Positions 3,784 to 29,980 of a stretch of DNA of 30,268 nt are shown here, piece by piece. This DNA is from a virus: positions 1 to 30,268 of IMG/VR virus record IMGVR_UViG_3300044502_000026; one strand, given 5' to 3'. A program made the translations under genes and the position numbers. Each line of letters starts with the position of its first letter. Positions within the stretch are counted from its first letter, which is position 1. Under the pieces are notes generated by a model. That model searched no databases. It was given only the letters and a program-made list of their open reading frames with translations, and had not been told where the DNA came from.

Positions 3784-4005
3784 ATGTTCACCACCGACGA
3801 AGGCTCAAACACCAACTGGGCGATCCTGTTCAGCGAACGCGATCTGAAAGAGATTGCCTTCTGCAAGCTCTACGCCGATCAGTTCGCACACGGCACAGAC
3901 GGTCACCTGATCCGCCTGATCGTCGCGCGCCTGGCTGCCCAACTCGACGTACAAGAGCAGATGTTGAAAGAACTGCGGGCCAAGTCTCAGAAGCCCACCG
4001 ACTGA
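3784..4005 (+). CDS. Small hypothetical protein
   Basis: 73 residues. ATG at 3784 follows the previous stop by three bases; GAGG lies eight bases upstream. The protein is mostly helical (ERDLKEIAFCKLYADQF, LIRLIVARLAAQLDVQEQMLKELRAK) with a likely amphipathic C-terminal helix. Its last residues (KPTD) and stop codon lie in the start of the GACTGAGGACTTCGG repeat. No family recognised; it belongs to the virion operon by position. Confidence 0.55.
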   Translation: MFTTDEGSNTNWAILFSERDLKEIAFCKLYADQFAHGTDGHLIRLIVARLAAQLDVQEQMLKELRAKSQKPTD

Positions 4006-4047
4006 GGACTTCGGACTGACGACTGACTCACTTCGGACTTCCCGACC
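4001..4047 (+). repeat. GACTTCGGACTGAC-type repeat (family C)
   Basis: A string of GACTGA, GACTTCGG and ACTGAC words fills the whole gap between two genes. The upstream stop TGA is part of the repeat, and the downstream ATG at 4048 follows it directly. Related strings occur near 222, 7361, 12822, 13170, 22573 and 29944. Confidence 0.75.
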
Positions 4048-7814: not shown

Positions 7815-7856
7815 TTTGAACTTTGAAGTTTGCAGTTTGAAGTTTCTTCATCTCAC
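7815..7856. repeat. TTTGAAGTTTGCAGTTTGAAG low-complexity repeat
   Basis: The gap before the fibre gene is filled by tandem TTTGAA(C/G)TTT words. It is AT-rich against the surrounding DNA and unlike the neighbouring genes. There is no clear ribosome site before the ATG at 7862. Confidence 0.6.
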
Positions 7857-7861
7857 ATGCC

Positions 7862-10024
7862 ATGACTACTAAACAAACGGACACCCACTTCGAAGCCGAC
7901 GAGCAAGCCAGCGTCGCCACGCCTGACGCAAACAAGGTCCGCCTGTACGCCAAGACCGACGGCCGCTACTACTCCAAAGACGACGCCGGGGCGGAGGCCG
8001 GGCCGTTCGGCGCAGCCGCAGGCGGCAGCCAGCACGTCATCCGCGAGAACGGCACGGGCCTGACCGCCCGCACCGGTCTCAACTTCGTCGCCGGGCTGAT
8101 CGCCACCGACGACGCGGGCGGCGACGAGAGCGAAGTCGCGCTCGACTACGCCACAACCGAGATCGTCGACGTGGCCGCCGCCGAGGGCGCAGGCACGAGC
8201 GACAAAGTCCCGCGCGCCGACCACGCGCACGCGGTCCCCAACGACCTCATCACCAACGCCATGCTCGCCAACGTGGGCACCCAGACGTTCAAGGGCCGCA
8301 CCACCGCCGCGACCGGCGATTCCGAAGACCTGACCGCCACGCAGGCGACAGCCATTCTCAACGCCATGGTCGGCGACGCAGGCGCGGGCGGCACGAAAGG
8401 ACTCGTCCCAGCGCCCGCCGCCGGCGACACGGCCGCCGGGAAGTATCTCAAGGCCGACGGCGCGTGGACCGTCCCGCCCGGCGGCGGCAGCAATCACAAC
8501 CTGCTCGACGGATCAGTCCACCCCGACACGCTTGCCGACACGGTCACCGACGGCGACATCATCATAGGCAACGTCACGCCCAAATGGTCGTCGCTCGCAA
8601 TCTCCGTACCCGCCGCCAACGTGCTCAACGTCCTGAGCGTCGCCTTCGGCGAACTGCGCGCCTCGTGGAAGGCGCTCTTCGACGCCACCAACCCCGCCGC
8701 GCTCGGCACCGCCGCGCCCGGCACGTCGCTCATCGCCGCCCACCGCGACCACGTCCACCTCGACCCCGTCACCGCGCACGAGGCAGCCAGCGATCCGCAC
8801 ACCGGCTACGTCCGCGAGGCAGACCCGAACTGGACTGACCTGACCGACAGCGGGGCGACGACGCTCCACAGCCACGCGGGCGGTTCCGCACTCACCGTCC
8901 AGGAAGAAGACGGCACGCCCATTGACACCGCCGTCTCGGTCATCCGCGTGCCCAACGGCGGGCTGATTGACAACGGCGTCGGCGACGTCTCGCTCGGCTA
9001 CGAGCTTGCCGGTCTCAACGCCACACACCTGGCCGACGCCGCCGACGCGCACGACGCCAGCGCAATCTCCATCCTCGACACCGCCGCCGACTTCACCGCG
9101 ACCGACGTCGAAGGCGCACTCGCCGAACTGCAAGCCGACGCCGAAGCCCACGCCGCCGCCGCCGACCCCCACACCGCCTACGCGCTCGACACCGATCTCT
9201 CGACGCACGCCAGCGCCGCCGATCCGCACACCGGCTACGTGCTGGAGTCCTTGATCGACGCGGCCGGCGATCTCATCCAGGGGTCCGCCGCCGACACCGT
9301 CGCGCGACTGGCGATCAGCGTTCCCGCCGCCAACATTTTGAACGTCCTGGGCGTCGCCTTCGGCGAGACCGTCACCTCGTGGAAAGCGATCCACGACGCC
9401 ACCAATCCCGCCGCGCTCGGCACAGCCGCGCCCGGCACATCACTCCTGGCATCGCACCGCGACCACGTCCATCTTGATCCGGTGACAGCGCACGTGGCCG
9501 CCGGGGACCCCCACACCGGCTACCGCCTGGAGTCGGCTGACCACTCGCACGCTTCGGCGGGCGCGCAGGGCGGCACGATCCTGCTCTCCGACACCACAGT
9601 CTCGGGCCTGACCGACGGGCAGGTGCTCAAAGCCACCGGCGCGACGACCAAAGCCTTCGAAGACGACGTCGCCGCGATCGAGTTCATCATCGACGGCGGC
9701 GGAAGCGCGATCACCACCGGGCAGAAGGGCCATCTCGAAATCCCCTTCGCCTGCGTCATCACGCGCGTGACCACACTCGCCGACCAGACCGGCTCCATCG
9801 TCGTGGACATCTGGAAAGACACCTACGCCAACTTCCCGCCCACCGTCACCGACACCATCACCGCCAGCGCCAAGCCCACACTCGCCAGCGCGCAGAAGGC
9901 GCAGGACTCCACCCTCACCGGCTGGACGACCGCCATCGCGGCGGGCGATATCCTGGCCTACAACGTGGACAGCGCCACGACCGTGACGCGCGTCGTCATC
10001 TCGCTCAAGGTGCGCAAGACGTGA
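7862..10024 (+). CDS. Tail fibre protein with duplicated repeats
   Basis: 720 residues. Numerous DPHTGY/DPHTAY and DHVHLDPVTAH motifs, typical of collagen-free tail-fibre shafts, are spread through it. A block of about 90 residues beginning near 235 (AISVPAANVLNVL...ALGTAAPGTSL...DPHTGY) recurs near 480 with close similarity, so the fibre has grown by internal duplication. The last 120 residues (from about 600: FIIDGGGSAI, GSIVVDIWKD, AQDSTLTGW, NVDSATTVTRVVISLKV) form a strand-rich domain that I recall from the C-termini of other phage fibres. Its TGA overlaps the next gene's GTG start. It probably mediates host contact. Confidence 0.8.
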   Translation: MTTKQTDTHFEADEQASVATPDANKVRLYAKTDGRYYSKDDAGAEAGPFGAAAGGSQHVIRENGTGLTARTGLNFVAGLIATDDAGGDESEVALDYATTEIVDVAAAEGAGTSDKVPRADHAHAVPNDLITNAMLANVGTQTFKGRTTAATGDSEDLTATQATAILNAMVGDAGAGGTKGLVPAPAAGDTAAGKYLKADGAWTVPPGGGSNHNLLDGSVHPDTLADTVTDGDIIIGNVTPKWSSLAISVPAANVLNVLSVAFGELRASWKALFDATNPAALGTAAPGTSLIAAHRDHVHLDPVTAHEAASDPHTGYVREADPNWTDLTDSGATTLHSHAGGSALTVQEEDGTPIDTAVSVIRVPNGGLIDNGVGDVSLGYELAGLNATHLADAADAHDASAISILDTAADFTATDVEGALAELQADAEAHAAAADPHTAYALDTDLSTHASAADPHTGYVLESLIDAAGDLIQGSAADTVARLAISVPAANILNVLGVAFGETVTSWKAIHDATNPAALGTAAPGTSLLASHRDHVHLDPVTAHVAAGDPHTGYRLESADHSHASAGAQGGTILLSDTTVSGLTDGQVLKATGATTKAFEDDVAAIEFIIDGGGSAITTGQKGHLEIPFACVITRVTTLADQTGSIVVDIWKDTYANFPPTVTDTITASAKPTLASAQKAQDSTLTGWTTAIAAGDILAYNVDSATTVTRVVISLKVRKT

Positions 10025-11346
10025 TCGGCTACTTCGCCGCCCCCTACACCCGCGACCTGAGCAAGTCGCGCCCCACACGCTACTGCGCCATGCAGGACGC
10101 GCAGAGCGTGATCGCGCTCGACGGCGGCGACTGGCACGAGACCGAAATTCTCCATACGGCCATACCCGCCGCAGGCGACACAGCTGGCAAGGCCATCGTG
10201 CGAGTGCGCGCATCCGTGGCCACACTCGCCGACCTGGCGACGGTGTATCGCCGCCTGCCGAAGAATAGCCTCGACGATCCGCTGGCCGATCTGTCCACGG
10301 CGGTCAAGCGTGTGCTGCGCGACGAACTGGAGGACAGCGGGTACACCCTGACAGAAATCCAGGCACGCTTCGGCAATGATATCGGCGCATATACCCTGCG
10401 CGACGTGGTGTCCTTTGCGGCCAGCCGCCGCCGCAAGCCGCGCTACGACGCCGCCAACGACAGAATCATTTGTGACGGCGCGATCCAGTCCTGTCGCAAC
10501 ATCCAGGATGTGGAACGCTGGTGCTCCGATGACGCTGACTGGCAGCGGCTACTCGCGCTGCGCGATACGCTGCTCGCAGAGTGGGACGCCAACCAGAAAC
10601 TCATCCGCCTGTCCCAGCGCTTGCCGGGCCTGCCGCAGTGGGAGCGCAGTACGCTGCTCGCGCTCGTCGGGCAGGCCGGATATTTCTTCGACAAAATCAG
10701 GCCAGATACGTTCCCGACGACGGGCCTACTCGACGATGCCAATCGTGCCGATGATGCCACGCCCCCACCCGGCGCGGGCTGGGGAGGAATGCTGTATTCG
10801 GCGGGCGGACAATTTCAGGTTTTGACCAATCAATTCGCGCCTCTGGGTGGAGGCGCAAGCACGGATTATTGGGGGACACTCTTCGGCACTGATCAAGAGG
10901 CGTTTGTAGACATAGCAACAAAAAGCACCGTGAATGGGTCAGCCACGTTCGTTGATCTTCGGGTGGTTGCTCCCGGAACGTCAGCCTGGGATGGATATGA
11001 AATTGAAACTATTGTCGTCGCGGGAGCGGACGAATGCCGCATCTATCGCGTGGACAATGAAGCCTGGACACAACTCGGTGCTATGGTCAATCAGGAATTC
11101 GCATCGGGTGAAAGTCTGGGCGGAGAAGCCATTGGCAGTGCCCTGACTCTGTATCGCAAAAGCGCTGGCAGTTGGGCCAGCGTGCTGTCGCGCACGGATG
11201 CTACCTACGCACCCGCCAGCAGTTATATCGGCATGGGCTCCTACGAAGCCAGCACAACAGAATTCCGGCTTGACAACTTCAGCGGCGGGACGGTGGTCGC
11301 CGCGGGCGGCGGCTTCGCCCACAGCCAGGGCGTCATCGTCGGCTGA
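10021..11346 (+). CDS. Tail-associated protein with C-terminal LamG/ConA-like domain
   Basis: 441 residues from GTG at 10021, coupled to the fibre gene. The N-terminal 230 residues have a helical region (about 75-215) with no family I can name. From about 238 to 430 the sequence (LLDDANRADD, GFxx spacing, YEIETIVVAGADECRIYRV, ASSYIGMGSYEASTTEFRLDNFSGG) looks like a laminin-G/concanavalin-like jelly roll, common in glycan-binding parts of phage adhesins. That part (about 10790-11270) is visibly poorer in GC and in C-ending codons than the rest, so it may have been acquired separately. Likely receptor-binding protein. Confidence 0.65.
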   Translation: MIGYFAAPYTRDLSKSRPTRYCAMQDAQSVIALDGGDWHETEILHTAIPAAGDTAGKAIVRVRASVATLADLATVYRRLPKNSLDDPLADLSTAVKRVLRDELEDSGYTLTEIQARFGNDIGAYTLRDVVSFAASRRRKPRYDAANDRIICDGAIQSCRNIQDVERWCSDDADWQRLLALRDTLLAEWDANQKLIRLSQRLPGLPQWERSTLLALVGQAGYFFDKIRPDTFPTTGLLDDANRADDATPPPGAGWGGMLYSAGGQFQVLTNQFAPLGGGASTDYWGTLFGTDQEAFVDIATKSTVNGSATFVDLRVVAPGTSAWDGYEIETIVVAGADECRIYRVDNEAWTQLGAMVNQEFASGESLGGEAIGSALTLYRKSAGSWASVLSRTDATYAPASSYIGMGSYEASTTEFRLDNFSGGTVVAAGGGFAHSQGVIVG

Positions 11347-12103
11347 CGGCGACATTCCAAGCAAGTGCTACGCCGCCGTCTGGCGACGGCGCACGGCCCG
11401 GCGTAGCGGCCTGGGCCGAGGCGGTAGCGGGATACCGCGACCGCCGTCAAACAAGTGCAGGGGCGACGCCGCTCCGCTTGTAAGTGCTGCGTCGCTCGTC
11501 GCCCCGTCAAGCCAACCCAGTGCAAAAAGAACCCCGGGCGACGGGGGTGAGCTGGCGCGGAAAGAACAAGTGCCCGCGCCGAACCCCTGGTCGCCCGGAC
11601 GAGCAAAGGCTGAGGAGGCAAAACCCACACGCGGGGACGCGGGCAAGTGCGCCGCCCGGCCTTGAGAAAGTGCGCCGGGCCGCTGCCCGCTCGCGGCGTG
11701 GTTTCCGGCTGCAGGCGGCTGCTTCGACGCTTGCCCGGCGGCGCACTTCGCAAGAACCAAAACCGCTCTGCCGCCGCCGGTCTGCGCGCTCGCCCCACCC
11801 TTGCCGTCACCACCCCGCGCCCCGCAAGAGCCAAACCCCGGAGGCGGCGTGCGAAGCGCACCCCGCCGTCAGACAAGAGCCAAAGGCGACGCTTCGCCTG
11901 TAAGAACTGCGAAGCGTCGCCGTCAACCAAGATCAAAAGCAAAACCTAATGCTCAGGCGACGGGGGTAAGCTGGCGCGGAAAGAGCAAGAGCCCGCGCCG
12001 AACCCCCGTCGCCTTCGCACGGAAAAGGCTGAGGAGACAAAAGCAAAAGCCCCCACTCATCGCAGGGGCATTCGTTCCTCGGAAAAACTGCCGGGCCGAG
12101 CGC
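11347..12103 (+). ncRNA. Gene-free region with stem-loop array and A-rich linkers
   Basis: No convincing gene in 757 bases. At least six strong stem-loops are visible: 11368-11407 (GCTACGCCG with CGGCGTAGC), about 11420-11445 (GGCGGT with ACCGCC), 11460-11505 (GGGGCGACG with CGTCGCCCC), 11534-11598, 11884-11921 (13-base perfect stem GGCGACGCTTCGC with GCGAAGCGTCGCC), and 11955-12014 (13-base perfect outer stem). Linkers are A-rich on the + strand and repeat the word CAAGTGC or CAAGAGC. The 11534 and 11955 structures are two diverged copies: same inner stem GGCGCGG/CCGCGCC, different but still paired outer stems, then a shared AAAGGCTGAGGAG. Compensating change between copies argues for a structured RNA. 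A repeat nest without function is the alternative. Confidence 0.5.
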
Positions 12104-12412
12104 CTACCCCCGACTGCCCCCGACCTGATCGGGGGGGGGGCCAGCGCCTACCGCCCCCACGCGCACCCGCGCCAGCTTGTGCCCTTCAACGATCACGCTT
12201 CCCAGCGTGCCCATGTCGGGCTGCTCATGCAGCACACCGAAGTCTGACAAACTCTGCACGTTGTAGTGACCACAATCGCAGAACCAACCCGCACCCCCGG
12301 CCAACACGTTGGCCGTCTTCTCGCACACTCCGCAGGTTTCACCCGTGAAGCCGTTGTAATTGGCCCAAGTATCAGCCATCTCAGTTATTTCTGAAACAGT
12401 GTAGACTTCCAT
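12104..12412 (-). CDS. Small zinc-binding protein
   Basis: 102 residues, last gene of the leftward operon; its start overlaps the end of the preceding gene by 28 bases. GGGAG lies about ten bases before ATG. Cys residues in CGVC and CDCGH (about residues 27-48) form a plausible zinc ribbon. The C-terminus (GAVGAGPPPDQVGGSRG) is encoded by a CCCGACCTGATCGGGG repeat and a run of ten Gs (12131-12140), so the last 15 residues may be foreign to the original gene and the run could shift frame. Function unknown. Confidence 0.5.
   Translation of the reverse strand: MEVYTVSEITEMADTWANYNGFTGETCGVCEKTANVLAGGAGWFCDCGHYNVQSLSDFGVLHEQPDMGTLGSVIVEGHKLARVRVGAVGAGPPPDQVGGSRG
12118..12140. repeat. CCCGACCTGATCGGGG repeat (family B) with G10 run
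   Basis: A palindromic family B unit runs into ten consecutive Gs. It forms the 3' end of the leftward zinc-protein gene. Other family B units lie at 12839-12858, 21637-21656 and, diverged, at 25983-26029. Confidence 0.75.
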
Positions 12413-12723
12413 TTCGTTTGCTCTCCCATCACCGCCCGATGCTCATCGTCCAACACACCGCTCCGCGCCCCGCACACCGGGCACACAAGATCGCCCAGCA
12501 CGAGCGAGTAGACCATCTCGGCAGGCGCGCCGTACTTCCGCTCAGGGTGCAGACAGATCATCTTCACTTCCCCGCCCACCGCCGACATACTGCCAGGACA
12601 GCGTGTGCCCCCACGACCGTGGCTCTCATAGCGCGGCGTGCGATCTTGCCCAAGCGTGGTCTCACGAACAGCCACACCGCAAACCGGACACAGCGAGAAG
12701 ACCACAAGGTCCATCGCGCTCAT
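12385..12723 (-). CDS. Zinc-finger-like small protein
   Basis: 112 residues from the ATG at 12723, which overlaps the stop of the upstream gene (ATGA); an upstream in-frame start would run across that gene and is rejected. Two CPVCG knuckles (near residues 12-16 and 80-85) and further single Cys residues suggest one or two zinc sites, with a basic segment (RTPRYESHGRGGTRC) between. No family recognised. Probably nucleic-acid or protein binding; the operon position behind an HTH gene suggests early or lysogenic expression. Confidence 0.6.
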   Translation of the reverse strand: MSAMDLVVFSLCPVCGVAVRETTLGQDRTPRYESHGRGGTRCPGSMSAVGGEVKMICLHPERKYGAPAEMVYSLVLGDLVCPVCGARSGVLDDEHRAVMGEQTKWKSTLFQK

Positions 12724-12902
12724 CGCCACGCGCCCGAGATCCCCGACGCCCACCACTCCCCCAGCGCCGCGATCACCACGACCAGCGCGTACCAAAGCAG
12801 CTCGCGGTTGCGCCAAGCCCACCGACTGACCGACTTCGTCCCCGACCTAATCGGGGATCGGACTTCGGACTTACCGACTCCGGACTGACTGACCGCGCTC
12901 AT
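12720..12902 (-). CDS. Small single-span membrane protein
   Basis: 60 residues. The ATG at 12902 overlaps the upstream stop (ATGA) and the gene's own stop overlaps the next ATG, so it sits in a coupled chain. The first 23 residues (SAVSQSGVGKSEVRSPIRSG...) are encoded by family C and B repeats; one hydrophobic helix follows at about residues 31-50 (LLWYALVVVIAALGEWWASGI). The membrane part seems to be the real protein and the N-terminus repeat-derived. Possible roles such as superinfection exclusion are speculation. Confidence 0.55.
   Translation of the reverse strand: MSAVSQSGVGKSEVRSPIRSGTKSVSRWAWRNRELLWYALVVVIAALGEWWASGISGAWR
12839..12858. repeat. Family B repeat embedded in family C string
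   Basis: TCCCCGACCTAATCGGGGAT interrupts a run of GACTGACCGACTTCG words (12822-12898). The composite is translated on the minus strand as the N-terminus of the small membrane protein. Confidence 0.75.
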
Positions 12903-13225
12903 GTCCCCGACTCCTTCTCCGGCAGCTGCCACCAAAGCGGCCCCGCGATAGCAATCTGCCTGAGCCGCCCCCCATAAAGCGCCCTCTCCGCTTCGCCGAT
13001 GGCCGCTTCGATATAGGGAAACTTCTCACACCCATCGTGCTCAGTCAGATAGCGCATCACGGCCACGTACAGCGTCTCCAGCACCGCTCGATCAACGCTG
13101 GCGAACACGCGCACATGCTCTCGGCCTTCTGCCTCCTGTGAACTGCCTTCTGCCTTCTGCGTACTGCCTTCTGGCGACTGACCGACTTCGAACTTCGGAC
13201 TGACGACTGACGACTGAGTCTTCAT
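12899..13225 (-). CDS. Hypothetical protein with repeat-derived N-terminus
   Basis: 108 residues. The ATG at 13225 overlaps the stop of the HTH gene (ATGA). Residues 2-36 are low-complexity (TQSSVVSPKFEV..., then QKAEG/QEAEG units) and are encoded entirely by family C and ACTGCCTTCTGCC repeats. The remainder (about 37-95, VRVFASVDRAVLETLYVAVMRYLTEHDGCEKFPYIEAAIGEAERALYGG) is a compact helical domain of no family I recognise. The repeat appears to have entered at the gene's 5' end in frame. Confidence 0.6.
   Translation of the reverse strand: MKTQSSVVSPKFEVGQSPEGSTQKAEGSSQEAEGREHVRVFASVDRAVLETLYVAVMRYLTEHDGCEKFPYIEAAIGEAERALYGGRLRQIAIAGPLWWQLPEKESGT
13130..13222. repeat. ACTGCCTTCTGCC and GACTTCGGACTGA repeats
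   Basis: Three to four CTGCCTTCTGC-like units (13130-13168) adjoin a family C string (13170-13222). They are translated as the N-terminus of the minus-strand gene starting at 13225. Confidence 0.75.
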
Positions 13226-13518
13226 GTCCCCACCGGCCTTCCACGCTTCACCTTCAAGCGCCCGTCCGCGCGCCCCGCTTCCGAGCGACGCCGCGCGATC
13301 TCCTGCTCAACGTCTTTCACCAGCACGCGCCCCTGCTTTTGCACGTTCGACTCGCGCTCGTCGCGCAGCCAGGTAAGACGCCCACGCAGACACAACTCGG
13401 CCAGCGCCCCCGCCGAAATCCCGATCCGCTTCGCTGCCTCGCTCATCGTATACACGTCGCGCTCCCCGGCCACGTCCACCGGCTTCCATTCCTGAAAGTG
13501 CTGCAACATCTTCGGCAT
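13222..13518 (-). CDS. Excisionase/MerR-type HTH DNA-binding protein
   Basis: 98 residues. The ATG at 13518 is chosen because GGAGG lies five bases upstream; an ATG at 13533 would lie at or ahead of the transcription start. Residues about 20-75 (VYTMSEAAKRIGISAGALAELCLRGRLTWLRDERE...GRVLVKDVEQEIARRR) match the helix-turn-helix of the excisionase/AlpA/HTH_17 group, in which a winged helix binds DNA. The C-terminus is basic (ADGRLKVKRGRP). As first gene of the leftward operon it could be a regulator or the recombination directionality factor for the integrase. Which is not decided by sequence. Confidence 0.75.
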   Translation of the reverse strand: MPKMLQHFQEWKPVDVAGERDVYTMSEAAKRIGISAGALAELCLRGRLTWLRDERESNVQKQGRVLVKDVEQEIARRRSEAGRADGRLKVKRGRPVGT

Positions 13519-13535
13519 AGCGTCCTCCGCCACTC

Positions 13536-13563
13536 ATCATAATCAACTTCCGGTAATTGTCAA
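13536..13563 (-). promoter_or_regulatory. Leftward sigma70-type promoter
   Basis: On the minus strand TTGACA (13563-13558) and TATGAT (13541-13536) are separated by 16 bases. Transcription would start near 13529, about ten bases before the ATG at 13518, with GGAGG between. The -35 box is consensus and the -10 box has one mismatch. Confidence 0.8.
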
Positions 13564-13639
13564 GTGGATCAGGCTTATGGAGATAAAGCCGAACTATCTC
13601 ATCCCGTAGCGTTTGTCTCGAGCCCGAAGTAGTCGGCCA

Positions 13640-14245
13640 CCCCGACCTCTACGCCGCGAAGCGCGGCACGATCTCCTTTACGCCGCGAAGCGCGGCACGA
13701 GCAAAACCTTCCGCGCGGAAAACCAAGAGCCGCGCGGCGGGGGGGTCGCGGCCCCCCCCGGCTTCGCTCCCCCACCCCTCCAATGGGGGGACAGTAGCGC
13801 CCCGCCCCCCCGCCAAGCTCCCCCTCCTGATGCGCGTGACCCATCGCAGACGACCCGCAGAGCAAAGGCGGCTACGCCACATTGAGAAGAGCGTGGCGTA
13901 GCCAACGCGCAGGCCCACCAGCCCTTCCAACACACACGCACCAGTGACACCACCCGCAGAGCTCCCGCGCGCCGCGCGCGGGCGGGGGGCGACCCGACGC
14001 CCCCCAGATCAGACCTCCCCCTCGGGTCGCGGCTTTCAGCCGGCGCGCCGGACGGGGGAAGACCAAGTGCCCCCCGCCGGTACCGGGCGGCCCCCTGCCC
14101 GCCCGCGCGCCGTCCTCAGCCGCGGGCCACTCACCCCGGCCTGGGGGTTTACCATAGGCCGCCGCGCGAAGCGCGCGCTGTTGTCTTTCATCTTGGGTTT
14201 TTTCTTTTCTTTAAAAGCAAGGCCCGGCTTTCCGGGTCTTTTTTG
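13640..14245 (+). ncRNA. Second stem-loop array ending in an intrinsic terminator
   Basis: No convincing gene. Visible structures: a 22-base unit duplicated at 13650-13671 and 13679-13700, each with GCCGCG-AAG-CGCGGC; 13711-13737 (CCGCGCGG, loop AAAACCAAGAG, CCGCGCGG); 13739-13758 (G7/C7); 13870-13903 (11-base stem GGCTACGCCAC with GTGGCGTAGCC); 13984-14005 (GGGGGGCG with CGCCCCCC); 14053-14076 (CGGGGG, loop AAGACCAAGTGC, CCCCCG). Loops and linkers (CAAGAG, CAAGTG, GCAAAACC) match those of the 11.35-12.06 kb array. A terminator closes the region on the + strand, which supports a + strand transcript. No promoter was identified at its left end. Confidence 0.45.
14221..14244 (+). terminator. Intrinsic terminator
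   Basis: GGCCCGG, loop CTTT, CCGGGTC (one G-T pair) followed by six Ts (14239-14244). A T-rich stretch (14187-14212) lies just upstream. It would end rightward transcripts from the stem-loop region before the adenine-poor segment. Confidence 0.75.
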
Positions 14246-15068
14246 CCGGGTTTCGGGGTGGGCGGCGTGTGCTCTTTCGGGTGGGCCTGGCGTGTCTTTT
14301 GTGCTCTTTCGGGTGGTCAAACAACCGCTCTCTTGGGGTCTTGCGTTGGCTCTCTCTTTGTGTCATGCTGTCTCTGTTCGTTGGTTCTTCTTCCTGTTGT
14401 TGTTGCGCTCCGCTTCTTGCGGAGCCGGGTGGTCGCCGTGTTCGCTCCTTCTTCTCTCTCCGCTCCTGTTCTCGCTTTCGTCGGCCTGTGGGCCGTGTTC
14501 GCGCTGCTGTTGTGGGTGCGCCTGTGCCTGCGGCGCTGGGCGCTGCTGGCCGGTGGCGTGCCCGGCCTGGTGGCGGCGGGCGTCGCCGTCTCGTTCGTGC
14601 CGGGTGGTGTCGTGTTCCGCTGTTCGCCGCGCCGCGCTGTGCCGGTCGCCGCTCGGCTGCTGGCGCTCTGCCGCTTGCTCGGCGTGCCCGCCGCGGCGGT
14701 CTCGTTCCCGGCTTCCGCCGGTGGCGGTGTGTCCGTGTTCGCGGCGCCGTGGTTGGGTGCGTTGCTGTGCTGTCGCGCTTTCCGCTCGGCGCGGGCGGTG
14801 GGCTGTGGCGTCGTGTGGGGTGTGCTGTGAGGCCTGCTGTGTCTGTCTCTCCCGCCCTGTGCCTTGCGCGCGGCCTGCCCCGCGCCGCCCGCGCCGTGTT
14901 GCGCGGTCGCGCGCTCCTCGTCGGGCGTGGTGCGCTGTTGCGCGGCTTGCCCATCCCCGCGCGCGTGCTGGCGGCGCTGTCCTGCCCGGCGCTGGCGTCG
15001 TCCGCGCCCGGCGCTGTCCCGACCTGCGGGCGTGCCGGTTGCGTCTGCGGGCGGGTCTGCCCGTCCGC
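14221..15068. other. Adenine-depleted segment with a 406-base A-free core
   Basis: Bases 14424-14829 contain no A on the + strand (no T on the minus strand). The wider segment 14221-15068 has about ten As in 848 bases. All three stop codons contain both A and T, so every frame on both strands stays open here and the long frames are no evidence of genes. Left of about 14.2 kb the + strand is instead T-poor, so the A/T bias flips sharply. A 17-base direct repeat TGTGCTCTTTCGGGTGG is at 14268-14284 and 14300-14316, and GCTCCGC-TTCTT-GCGGAGC forms a hairpin at 14406-14424. Two GTG-started frames (14429-14830 and 14827-15096, overlapping as GTGA) would encode a hydrophobic and a Cys/Arg-rich protein; I do not accept them as genes. 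Function unknown. Confidence 0.9.
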
Positions 15069-22265: not shown

Positions 22266-22585
22266 AAACCTACAACGCCACCCCGCGCGCGCGCGAGGCC
22301 GCCGATCAAATTGAAATGCTTATGGCCGTCGAGGGCCAGCCAGTACACGTCATCGTCCACGACACCGGCCGCGCCATCGAGATCGTCGTGCCCGCCGACG
22401 TGCCCGACAAACTCCGCGCCAGCCCGCACGTCCCGGCGAGTATGGCCGTCGGACTCGCCACCCACGCGCGCTACGTCCAGTGGGCGCGGAGGCCCAGCAC
22501 GAGTCTCTTCGTCCTGTGCGACGACCAGGAGACATTCGAGCAGTACGACCAAATGCTCAACCCGCCCCAGCCGTCTGACGACTGA
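22262..22585 (+). CDS. Hypothetical protein
   Basis: 107 residues, coupled to the previous gene by ATGA. An N-terminal helix (REAADQIEMLMAVEG) precedes strands (VHVIVHDTGRAIEIVVPADV) and a further alpha/beta part (TSLFVLCDDQETFEQYDQML). The last residues PSDD and the stop come from the GACGACTGAGGACTGA repeat. No family recognised. Confidence 0.6.
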   Translation: MKTYNATPRAREAADQIEMLMAVEGQPVHVIVHDTGRAIEIVVPADVPDKLRASPHVPASMAVGLATHARYVQWARRPSTSLFVLCDDQETFEQYDQMLNPPQPSDD

Positions 22586-22614
22586 GGACTGAGGACTGAG
22601 AACTGAGGACTGAC
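22573..22614 (+). repeat. GACTGAGGACTGAG repeat (family C)
   Basis: Five tandem GACTGAGGACTGA-like units fill the gap. The first TGA ends the upstream gene and a final GAGG, seven bases before ATG 22616, serves as ribosome site of the downstream gene. Confidence 0.8.
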
Positions 22615-24368: not shown

Positions 24369-24593
24369 ATGCTCGACGGCGGCGCGGGCCGCCCGACGCT
24401 CACCCTCCAACTCGTGCGCGCCTACCAGCACCCGTCCGAGATCGAGTGGGCCACCGTCGTGCGCGCGCTCCCCTATTCGTTGACACCCACCACCTTCCGC
24501 CCGCGCGCCGCGACCGGGGCCAACAGCCGACACGTCCTGTGGGGCACCACGAAGGTCGACGTGCAGGCAAAACTCTTCAATGAAACTCCTTGA
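24369..24593 (+). CDS. Hypothetical protein upstream of the methyltransferase
   Basis: 74 residues from ATG 24369. The strong ribosome site GGGAGG (24347-24352) is 16 bases away from this ATG but seven bases before an in-frame ATC (24360) in the context GACCATC, where other genes have GACCATG; the start may be a mutated or non-standard codon. Content is mixed strand/helix (RPTLTLQLVRAYQHPSEIEWATVVRALPYS). It overlaps the methyltransferase start by 14 bases. Function unknown. Confidence 0.45.
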   Translation: MLDGGAGRPTLTLQLVRAYQHPSEIEWATVVRALPYSLTPTTFRPRAATGANSRHVLWGTTKVDVQAKLFNETP

Positions 24594-25239
24594 TCTCTTC
24601 TGCGGCGCAGGCGGGGCGGCGATGGGCTACCACCGCGCGGGCTTCGACGTGATCGTGGGCGTGGACACCAAACCGCAGCCGCATTACCCGTTCGAGTTCG
24701 TGCAGGCCGACGCGCTCGAATTCTGCGCGGCGCACGGGCGCGAGTTCGACGCCGTCCACGCGTCACCGCCGTGCCACCACTACAGCACTGGCACACAACA
24801 CAGGAAAAACCGGGGCATCGTGTACCCTGCCTTAATCGAGCCGACGCAAGCGCTTTTGCTTGAGATAGGACTGCCTTACATCATTGAGAATGTGCCCGGC
24901 GCAAAAAACGACTTGCGAAAACCCGTCATGCTCTGCGGCAGTATGTTCGGGTTAGGCGTGATGCGGCACCGGCTATTTGAGACGAACTGGCCGCTCCCCG
25001 TGCCTGCCCATGCCTGCAACGGCAACGACATTGATCGGGATGCTCTATCGGTGACGCGGCATGGCCCGCCTGCACGCTGGTATCGCAACCACCCAGACAA
25101 AACGTTCAATATCAAGACGTGGCACGCTGCGATGGGCATAGATTGGATGACACGCAGCGAGTTGACCCAAGCCGTCCCGCCCGCCTACACGGAGTACATC
25201 GGCGCGCAACTGCTCGCCGCCGTCCGAGGCGCGAGATGA
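24580..25239 (+). CDS. C5 cytosine DNA methyltransferase
   Basis: 219 residues, short for the family. Motif I DLFCGAGGAAMGY (5-17, cofactor S-adenosylmethionine), motif IV SPPC with catalytic Cys65, motif VI ENV (103-105), a motif VIII-like MRHRLF (128-133) and a motif X-like VPPAYTEYIGAQLL near the end are all present. The target recognition region between motifs VIII and X (about 140-190) is only some 50 residues. No restriction enzyme gene was recognised beside it, so it is likely an orphan enzyme that protects phage DNA from host restriction. The middle (about 24790-25110) has less GC than its neighbours, suggesting recent acquisition. Confidence 0.9.
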   Translation: MKLLDLFCGAGGAAMGYHRAGFDVIVGVDTKPQPHYPFEFVQADALEFCAAHGREFDAVHASPPCHHYSTGTQHRKNRGIVYPALIEPTQALLLEIGLPYIIENVPGAKNDLRKPVMLCGSMFGLGVMRHRLFETNWPLPVPAHACNGNDIDRDALSVTRHGPPARWYRNHPDKTFNIKTWHAAMGIDWMTRSELTQAVPPAYTEYIGAQLLAAVRGAR

Positions 25240-28387: not shown

Positions 28388-29963
28388 AAGGATTCGGGTA
28401 GCCACAAAGAGAGTCAAGGGGCGCGCCGCACGCTCCGATTTCGCCCACGCAAAATCGCAGGCCCCGCGATTCACCGCCGCGCAGATGAAAGCCGAAGTCG
28501 CCCGCCAGGTGCAGCTGAGCGTGTCGAAGCTCGCCGTGCGCGAGACCGACGACACCTTCATCCTCGGCGCGCGCCAGGCGTCTCAACAGAACTGGCGCGA
28601 CCGCTACGACTACGACCGCGAAAAGATTTTGCTCGACGCGCTGCTCGTGTGGCGCTCCAACCCGCTCGCGCGCCGCATCGTCGAGCTGACCAGCCAGTAC
28701 GTCGTCGGCGGAGGCCTGGTCCCCATCTGCAAGCACCCCGAGACCGCCAAATTCCTGACGAAGTTTTGGGACCACAGACTCAATCGCATGGAGACGCGCT
28801 GTATCGAGTGGTGCGACGAACTGACCCGCTCCGGCGAACTCTTCATCTTGATCGCCACCGACCCCGGCGGCCAGTCCTACGCGCGCGCCGTCGCCGCCGC
28901 CGACATCGAGGCGATCACCCCATCCGCCAACGACATCGAGCAGGCCGTTTCCTTCCAGCCCAAGCTCAGCGTCGACGCCCTGAGCCTGTCGAAGGGCGAC
29001 CCCGCGCCTTACATCGCCTACGACGAGCAGAACGACGAGCCGGACAGCCAGGGCAAGTGGCAGCCGCGCATGGTCCAGTACGCCGTCAACCGCCCCGTGG
29101 GCGGGCAGCACGGCGAGAGCGACCTGGGGCCGCTGCTCCGCTGGCTCACGCGCTACGACGGCTGGCTCGAAGACAGAGTCCGGCTCAACCGCTACCGGCA
29201 AGCCTTCATGTATATCCTCACCGGCACGTGGGAAAACGAGACCGCGCGAAAGAAAAAGCAGGCCGAAATCAACGCCGACCCGCCCCCGCCCGGCTCGACT
29301 CTGGTGACAGACAAGTCCGAAACTTGGGGCGTGCTCAACCCGCAGCTCGCCAGCTTCGAAGCGGGCGAAGACGGTCTGGCGATCAAGAAACACATTGCCA
29401 CCGGCGCCGGCATCCCACTTCACTTCGTCGCCGAACCGGAGGGCGAGACGCGCACGACCGCCGCCGCCTCGGGCAGCCCCACCTTCCGCCACTACGAGCA
29501 GCGCCAGCTCTACTTCCTATCGTTCGTCAAAGACATTCTCAACATCGTCCGCCGCCGCGGCATCGAAGCCAAACGGCGTCTCTCCACCACCGCCGACATC
29601 GTCATGCGCGGCGGTGACATCTCCGGGCGCGACAATGCCGCGCTCGCGCTCGCCGCTTCGCAGATCGTCGCTTCGTTCGCCGTGATCCGCGACCGGGGGT
29701 TGATCGACGACGCGGAACTGCTGCGCCTGTCCTATCGTTTCGCAGGCGAGCTCGTAGATGTGGAGGAGATGCTGGAACGCGGCCGGCAAGCGCCAATGCC
29801 TCGCATCCTGCCCAAGGCCGGAGCCGCCGCGCCGCCCGGAGGCAACAAGAAGAAGGTCAAGCCCACCGATCCGCTCGTGGACGCCGACGTCGAGAAGCCG
29901 CAGGGCGACGCCGCGCTCAGCGCCGTGCAACGCCGCAACGGTCAGCTGACGACTGACGACTGA
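28377..29963 (+). CDS. Portal protein
   Basis: 528 residues from GTG 28377: GAGGAGA lies seven bases upstream, and the longer frame would run far into terL. Portal features: YDREKILLDALLVWRSNPLARRIVELTSQYVVGGG near the N-terminus (wing/clip), a YGxx-free stem region with RLNRYRQAFMYILTGTWENE, and GIPLHFVAEPEGETRTTAAASGSPTFRHYEQRQLYFL, a motif common to lambda/SPP1-type portals. The last 60 residues are basic and flexible. Residues about 17-25 (SDFAHAKSQ) come from a family G palindrome and DALSLSKGD (about 200-208) from a family D element; RRNGQLTTDD at the end comes from the family C repeat. It forms the ring through which DNA passes. Confidence 0.92.
   Translation: MAAKRIRVATKRVKGRAARSDFAHAKSQAPRFTAAQMKAEVARQVQLSVSKLAVRETDDTFILGARQASQQNWRDRYDYDREKILLDALLVWRSNPLARRIVELTSQYVVGGGLVPICKHPETAKFLTKFWDHRLNRMETRCIEWCDELTRSGELFILIATDPGGQSYARAVAAADIEAITPSANDIEQAVSFQPKLSVDALSLSKGDPAPYIAYDEQNDEPDSQGKWQPRMVQYAVNRPVGGQHGESDLGPLLRWLTRYDGWLEDRVRLNRYRQAFMYILTGTWENETARKKKQAEINADPPPPGSTLVTDKSETWGVLNPQLASFEAGEDGLAIKKHIATGAGIPLHFVAEPEGETRTTAAASGSPTFRHYEQRQLYFLSFVKDILNIVRRRGIEAKRRLSTTADIVMRGGDISGRDNAALALAASQIVASFAVIRDRGLIDDAELLRLSYRFAGELVDVEEMLERGRQAPMPRILPKAGAAAPPGGNKKKVKPTDPLVDADVEKPQGDAALSAVQRRNGQLTTDD
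28436..28457. repeat. Family G palindrome inside the portal gene
   Basis: CGATTTCGC-CCAC-GCAAAATCG, translated as SDFAHAKSQ. Confidence 0.75.
28978..28996. repeat. Family D element inside the portal gene
   Basis: CCCTGAGCCTGTCGAAGGG, translated as LSLSKG. It is an imperfect palindrome known to me as a widespread interspersed bacterial repeat. Confidence 0.8.
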
Positions 29964-29980
29964 GGACTGAGGACTGACCA
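29944..29980 (+). repeat. GACTGACGACTGAGGACTGA repeat (family C)
   Basis: Tandem units supply the portal stop codon and, through GAGG, the ribosome site of the gene at 29981. Confidence 0.8.

Follow-up and report, generated by a model that had tools for sequence, protein, structure and literature searches.

A gene-free hairpin array with a recurrent loop word in a phage genome, a candidate multi-hairpin non-coding RNA

The DNA analyzed here (the window) is the whole of a virus record of 30,268 bases, in which capsid/protease, terminase, and portal genes were found, as well as a DNA cytosine methyltransferase gene at 24580-25239 (Pfam PF00145, phrog_363). As shown in Table 1, a gene-free stretch that we call R1 begins directly past the stop codon of the + strand ORF 10021-11346, a tail-side gene for which no relative was found among viral contigs, and it ends at a terminator-like hairpin. 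On its far side is a leftward gene block, in which ORF 13222-13533 gave a weak HTH match, followed by a second gene-free hairpin array, R2. Short tandem heptamers (e.g., CTGACGA, CTGAGGA, and CGACTGA) were seen at gene junctions of the window (3999-4027, 7815-7845, 13198-13217, 22575-22613, and 29946-29978), and, since 7 is not divisible by 3, those containing TGA stop every reading frame.

A coding function for R1 was considered and ruled out, because the G+C content by codon position was flat (0.66/0.67/0.71, compared to 0.66/0.48/0.90 for the capsid gene) and the AAGTGC words that recur in R1 are not in one frame. A preliminary description of this DNA had identified 11347-12060 as a gene-free stretch, and the location between an ORF stop and a terminator-like hairpin, together with the absence of codon-position periodicity, confirms that this stretch is real and non-coding.

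Table 1. Positions of the arrays, hairpins, repeats, and flanking features in the window.
Feature	Position	Strand	Basis or remark
R1, gene-free hairpin array	11347..12060	+	Between end of + strand tail-side genes and leftward gene block
Internal duplication, copy 1	11441..11623	+	Linker, hairpin, composite hairpin, AAAGGCTGAGGAG
Five CCGTCA tags after hairpins	11444..11925	+	Starts 11444, 11504, 11804, 11866, 11920; none on - there
Composite hairpin, copy 1	11534..11598	+	Outer stem, 7-bp inner stem, 13-nt loop AAAGAACAAGTGC; fold
AAAGGCTGAGGAG after composite hairpin 1	11605..11617	+	Again at 12024-12036 after copy 2
Third hairpin, 7-bp stem, 13-nt loop, GCCCGGC-CTTGAGAAAGTGC-GCCGGGC	11654..11680	+	Loop scan, hairpin model
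Internal duplication, copy 2	11863..12042	+	Alignment to copy 1
13-bp stem, loop CTGTAAGAACT	11885..11921	+	Diverged partner in copy 1 at about 11460-11504
Composite hairpin, copy 2	11950..12019	+	Loop AAAGAGCAAGAGC; fold
Terminator-like hairpin, T-rich tail, for leftward block	12049..12069	-	Terminator scan
Leftward gene block	12104..13533	-	ORFs 12104-12412, 12385-12822, 12899-13225, 13222-13533
Promoter-like TTGACA-16-TATGAT for leftward block	13536..13563	-	Promoter scan
R2, second hairpin array, same loop word	13620..14244	+	Beyond leftward gene block; gene-free
R2 hairpin, loop GAAAACCAAGAGC on 7-bp stem	13711..13737	+	Loop scan, hairpin model
R2 hairpin, 11-bp stem, loop ATTGAGAAGAGC	13870..13903	+	Loop scan, fold
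R2 hairpin, loop AAGACCAAGTGC	14053..14076	+	Hairpin model match E 0.05, outside training set
Terminator-like CCCGGCTTTCCGGGTCTTTTTT	+ strand end of R2	+	Read from sequence; not listed by terminator scan

The predicted fold of R1 had a better energy than 20 of 20 shuffled sequences on both strands (z -5.3 on the + strand and -7.1 on the - strand). Therefore, folding energy does not pick the strand of R1, and the earlier statement that strong stem-loops are present on one strand only was found to hold for the A-rich linkers, which occur between strong hairpins on the + strand only, but not for the folding energy, which is stronger on the - strand. The two composite hairpins fold as had been described, one at -45.3 kcal/mol (z -4.9) and the other at -46.2 kcal/mol (z -6.4), with 0 of 200 shuffles as good for either, and they do share an inner part (48 of 51 nt in common) and the sequence AAAGGCTGAGGAG that follows each of them. 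Among other viral contigs, none contained an extended form of this pattern, AAAGGCTGAGGAGNCAAA.

The interpretation of the composite hairpins as two covarying copies was overstated. They are parts of an internal duplication of about 180 nt, the copies of which have 76.7% identity over 189 alignment columns, and most of the outer stem is identical, including 12 nt of the outer 5′ arm (GGCGACGGGGGT). As read from the folds, the sole clean double compensatory change between the copies is G11536-C11596 versus A11955-U12014; in copy 2, the two pairs outside A11955-U12014 are mismatched, and pairing resumes farther outward. The observation itself thus holds, but "covarying" is too strong a term.

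The feature that recurs throughout R1 is a short word, AAGWRC, which the preliminary description missed, as it did the CCGTCA tags and R2. The word occurs 14 times on the + strand of R1 and once on the - strand, relative to 0.52 expected on the + strand from the rest of the window, a comparison that is after the fact because the word was first noticed in R1. These sites are in hairpin loops and linkers, often in a 13-nt loop on a 7-bp stem, and the two halves of R1 differ in the form of the word: the first half has AAGTGC six times and two AAGAAC, whereas the second half has AAGAGC and AAGAAC and no AAGTGC. In the window as a whole, 10 of 38 + strand AAGWRC words lie in a loop with a closing stem of 6 bp or more, compared to a mean of 1.2 (maximum 7) when positions were permuted, and 9 of these 10 fall in R1 or R2, although the enrichment in R2 is weak (3 words). 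The CCGTCA tags of R1 are on the 3′ side of hairpins, and some of the tag bases may pair. The five best matches of a hairpin model in the whole window were all on the + strand of R1 and R2, four of the five being training sequences; because this model and a table of covariation in 12 hairpins were built from hairpins chosen for intact or good stems, the table is biased and descriptive only.

The location of R1 suggests one interpretation in which the hairpins would stop or protect the mRNA of the tail operon and a terminator would serve the leftward block, R1 being the zone in which two converging transcription units end. The genes flanking R1 are convergent, there is a good - strand terminator (12069-12049), and 9 terminator-like sites were found in 9800-13600 versus 3.3 expected. 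The + strand hairpins, however, are without U-tracts, termination requires neither a loop word nor a loop of 13 nt, and R2 and other arrays are located upstream of genes instead of at convergent ends. We consider it unlikely that this interpretation accounts for R1.

The RNAs GOLLD and ROOL assemble into RNA-only multimeric cages, and the preliminary description had likened R1 to them on the basis of its size, complexity, and phage setting. They are, like R1, large, structured, apparently non-coding, and encoded in phage genomes, and they often adjoin tRNA islands (PMC12286853). Comparison of the window with all 4227 Rfam families gave no match at the gathering threshold, and for 11200-14400 only chance matches at E<=10; chance matches alone were also obtained with the relatives described below. 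A direct search for ROOL (RF03087) gave no match, as was also the case for the control genomes, and GOLLD was evaluated solely through the full Rfam scans. No tRNA was found in the window or in ten related loci. Given the lack of a sequence or structure match to either family and of tRNAs nearby, and an architecture that is a modular, repetitive array of hairpins rather than one conserved fold, the likeness was not borne out, and it is very improbable that R1 belongs to GOLLD or ROOL or is closely analogous to them.

A blastn search of phage and plasmid records with R1 gave no significant match, and exact patterns of the loop region of the window gave chance matches in viral contigs, mostly in coding DNA; closer homologues of R1 may be present among metagenome contigs. 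Relatives of the phage were reached through its genes, namely L226, L205, and L210 by a search with the capsid gene, and most others by way of a gene for a SLOG-fold protein. In L226 (capsid 46% identical), a long tail-side ORF and the SLOG gene are separated by a gap that contains an array with AAGWRC nine times on the + strand and once on the - strand, and AAAGAACAAGAGC is present twice, as an exact 13-nt loop on two different 7-bp stems. An AlphaFold model of the protein encoded by the L226 gene that follows the array (pLDDT 93.5) has the SLOG fold, with DprA and ShosA as best matches. In the relatives found by the SLOG gene, this gene is preceded by a stretch without genes that is mostly hairpin-rich, except that L250 looks different, as judged by reading. 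The relatives L205 and L210 have the same layout as the window, with a tail gene, a hairpin stretch, leftward genes, a second hairpin stretch, and rightward genes that include the SLOG gene. A closer relative (L073/L154, capsid 65% identical) has a plain terminator at the place of R1, which is lacking there.

The arrays upstream of SLOG genes in L226, L242 to L249, L205, and L210 resemble R1 in having the same loop word on the same strand and, in the L226 group, loops of 13 nt, as well as the R1/R2 layout of L205 and L210, whereas their overall sequences cannot be aligned with that of R1. Like them, R1 is a gene-free stretch in a comparable part of the genome with AAGWRC enriched on the sense strand, most strongly in R1 and L226. 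In most of the phage arrays examined, AAGWRC is mostly on the sense strand of the neighboring genes, the exceptions being L247 and L248, and the enrichment is absent from R2 of L205 and R1 of L210. Six contigs, the very diverged L205 and L247 among them, have an AGARC-type bulge of 5 nt within a GCAAG-type stem. No SLOG ORF was found in the window at E<=1 using a profile of eight relatives, and therefore the SLOG gene is not a candidate for a general partner of R1. In L248, tandem repeats with CATGCACTTCTGAAAGAGC and CACTCAGTTCTTTTCTATAACC were seen upstream of the SLOG gene, at about 600-850.

Four closely related contigs, L242 (the L226 contig), L243, L244, and L245, could be aligned over this element, and their consensus fold is branched. 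Double compensatory changes were found at 12 of 114 pairs, including 283-410, 289-404, 418-444, and 515-521, some of the 12 being in a segment that is replaced in L245. Because R1 has no homologue by DNA similarity, the covariation comes from the elements of relatives, which were matched to R1 by word and place only. Thus, the covariation among relatives that the preliminary description had anticipated was seen in a related element, and none of it came from the sequence of R1 itself.

When the SLOG profile was used to search a genome collection, one match was obtained, a Chloroflexi MAG, and we infer from this single related locus that the window phage probably infects Chloroflexi. The MAG locus (L306, 3700-3960) contains, upstream of the SLOG gene, hairpins that are repeated in tandem with AGATCAAGAGC as the joining sequence. 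The sequence AAAGARCAAGWGC occurs in the MAG as four exact copies, three of them in loops of interspersed palindromes, and a palindrome of the form GATTGCTTCG...CGCAATGAC occurs in 122 copies, often as close inverted pairs. Of 100 copies that were read, 34 have AAGARC-type loops and 3 have the reverse, and the copies are on both strands and in either orientation to genes, as far as the crude gene calls there allow. The possibility that AAGARC is the usual loop of all MAG hairpins was rejected, because it was carried by 0 of 129 perfect stems of at least 9 bp in 400 kb; therefore, the loop word belongs to the REP-like family, the stems of which are interrupted. In other phages (L251, L258, L261, L296, and L304), composite hairpins with a AAAGARCAAGAGC loop were also seen, located shortly before a start codon. 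Since MAG repeats and single phage hairpins share the loop, the AAGWRC-type word is not private to R1-type elements, and it may be characteristic of the hairpin repeats of this group.

These repeats bring up a different interpretation, in which R1 would consist of clustered REP-like palindromes with tags, DNA-level and possibly mobile or selfish hairpins that accumulated between converging genes and have no RNA function of their own. R1 consists of extragenic stem-loops, contains a duplication, and shares its loop word with the abundant repeat of a MAG that has a related SLOG locus, and the CCGTCA that follows its hairpins five times, always on the + strand, recalls the unpaired end tags (GTAG or CGTC) of REP families (PMC3733652), but it lies on the 3′ side and some of its bases may pair. 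Yet REP elements are defined as short, highly similar sequences in multiple copies per genome (PMC12306157), whereas the stems of R1 are not one repeated family, just two copies being alike, and R1 has no copy elsewhere in the window. Moreover, in 396 genomes from the class of the MAG, the matches to R1 were all short and chance-like, and the phage arrays differ from REP/REPIN elements in the sense-strand bias of the word and in their similar positions in the genomes of related, even distant, phages. The concern that R1 might be a nest of ordinary interspersed repeats was thus justified for the shared loop word but not for R1 itself. We regard a REP-like cluster as a serious competing interpretation, though on balance doubtful.

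The interpretation that we favor, with a rough probability of 0.4, is that R1, together with R2, is a clade-specific array of hairpins in a non-coding RNA that would present many copies of one candidate binding site, as in a sponge. Transcription would proceed along the + strand, with R1 as the last part of the late transcript, and this RNA would fold into G+C-rich hairpins with stems that are free to change, while the loops (7 to 13 nt) and linkers would keep presenting AAGWRC. Such a platform could collect or titrate a factor that reads AAGWRC, either a protein or a complementary nucleic acid. The finding of fixed loops and linkers on changing stems indicates that the loop word, and not the stem, is what is kept, and a multivalent binding platform is suggested by the display, on a rigid scaffold, of a short, purine-rich, single-stranded word in many copies. 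The recurrence of such arrays in relatives and the compensatory changes in the element of L242 to L245 also favor this reading. It is weakened by the relative L073/L154 that lacks R1 at the corresponding place, the folding energy on the - strand, the derivation of the covariation from elements of relatives, the presence of the same loops in MAG repeats, the weak enrichment of the word in R2, and the absence of enrichment in R2 of L205 and R1 of L210.

A corresponding logic is known from the CsrB and RsmZ RNAs, which titrate CsrA/RsmE and have GGA motifs in their hairpin loops. These RNAs have been described as protein sponges (PMC12047976). R1 would follow the same logic with another word and is not itself CsrB/RsmZ, because its loops have AAGWRC instead of GGA and it is longer and phage-borne. 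The partner that membership in that class would call for, CsrA, was found neither in the MAG nor in the window nor in three relatives, and Hfq was not found above the cut-off in the MAG; the absence of both proteins above the cut-off in the MAG also weakens the platform interpretation.

A more far-reaching possibility is that the arrays are a new class of large phage hairpin RNA that often adjoins a gene of the DprA-fold (SLOG) type, with loops that copy the loop word of host REP-like hairpins and so act as a decoy or sponge for a factor that reads those hairpins; this we hold to be rather improbable. If R1 is an RNA, it would add to the few large phage RNAs known an element in which a series of stems is interchangeable and the loops are fixed, and which is similarly located in phages with capsids only about half identical. 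It would also connect phage RNAs with host REP-like hairpins and a DprA-fold protein in a way that can be tested. If R1 is instead a cluster of REP-like repeats, one type of hairpin loop would be common to phages and a bacterial genome, which bears on the origins of such repeats. With either reading, the loop word is a simple experimental handle in a little-studied group. Past R2, the window is pyrimidine-rich at 14260-14420 and contains two copies of GTGCTCTTTCGGGTGG, which is complementary to the loop word AAAGAGC and might pair with it.
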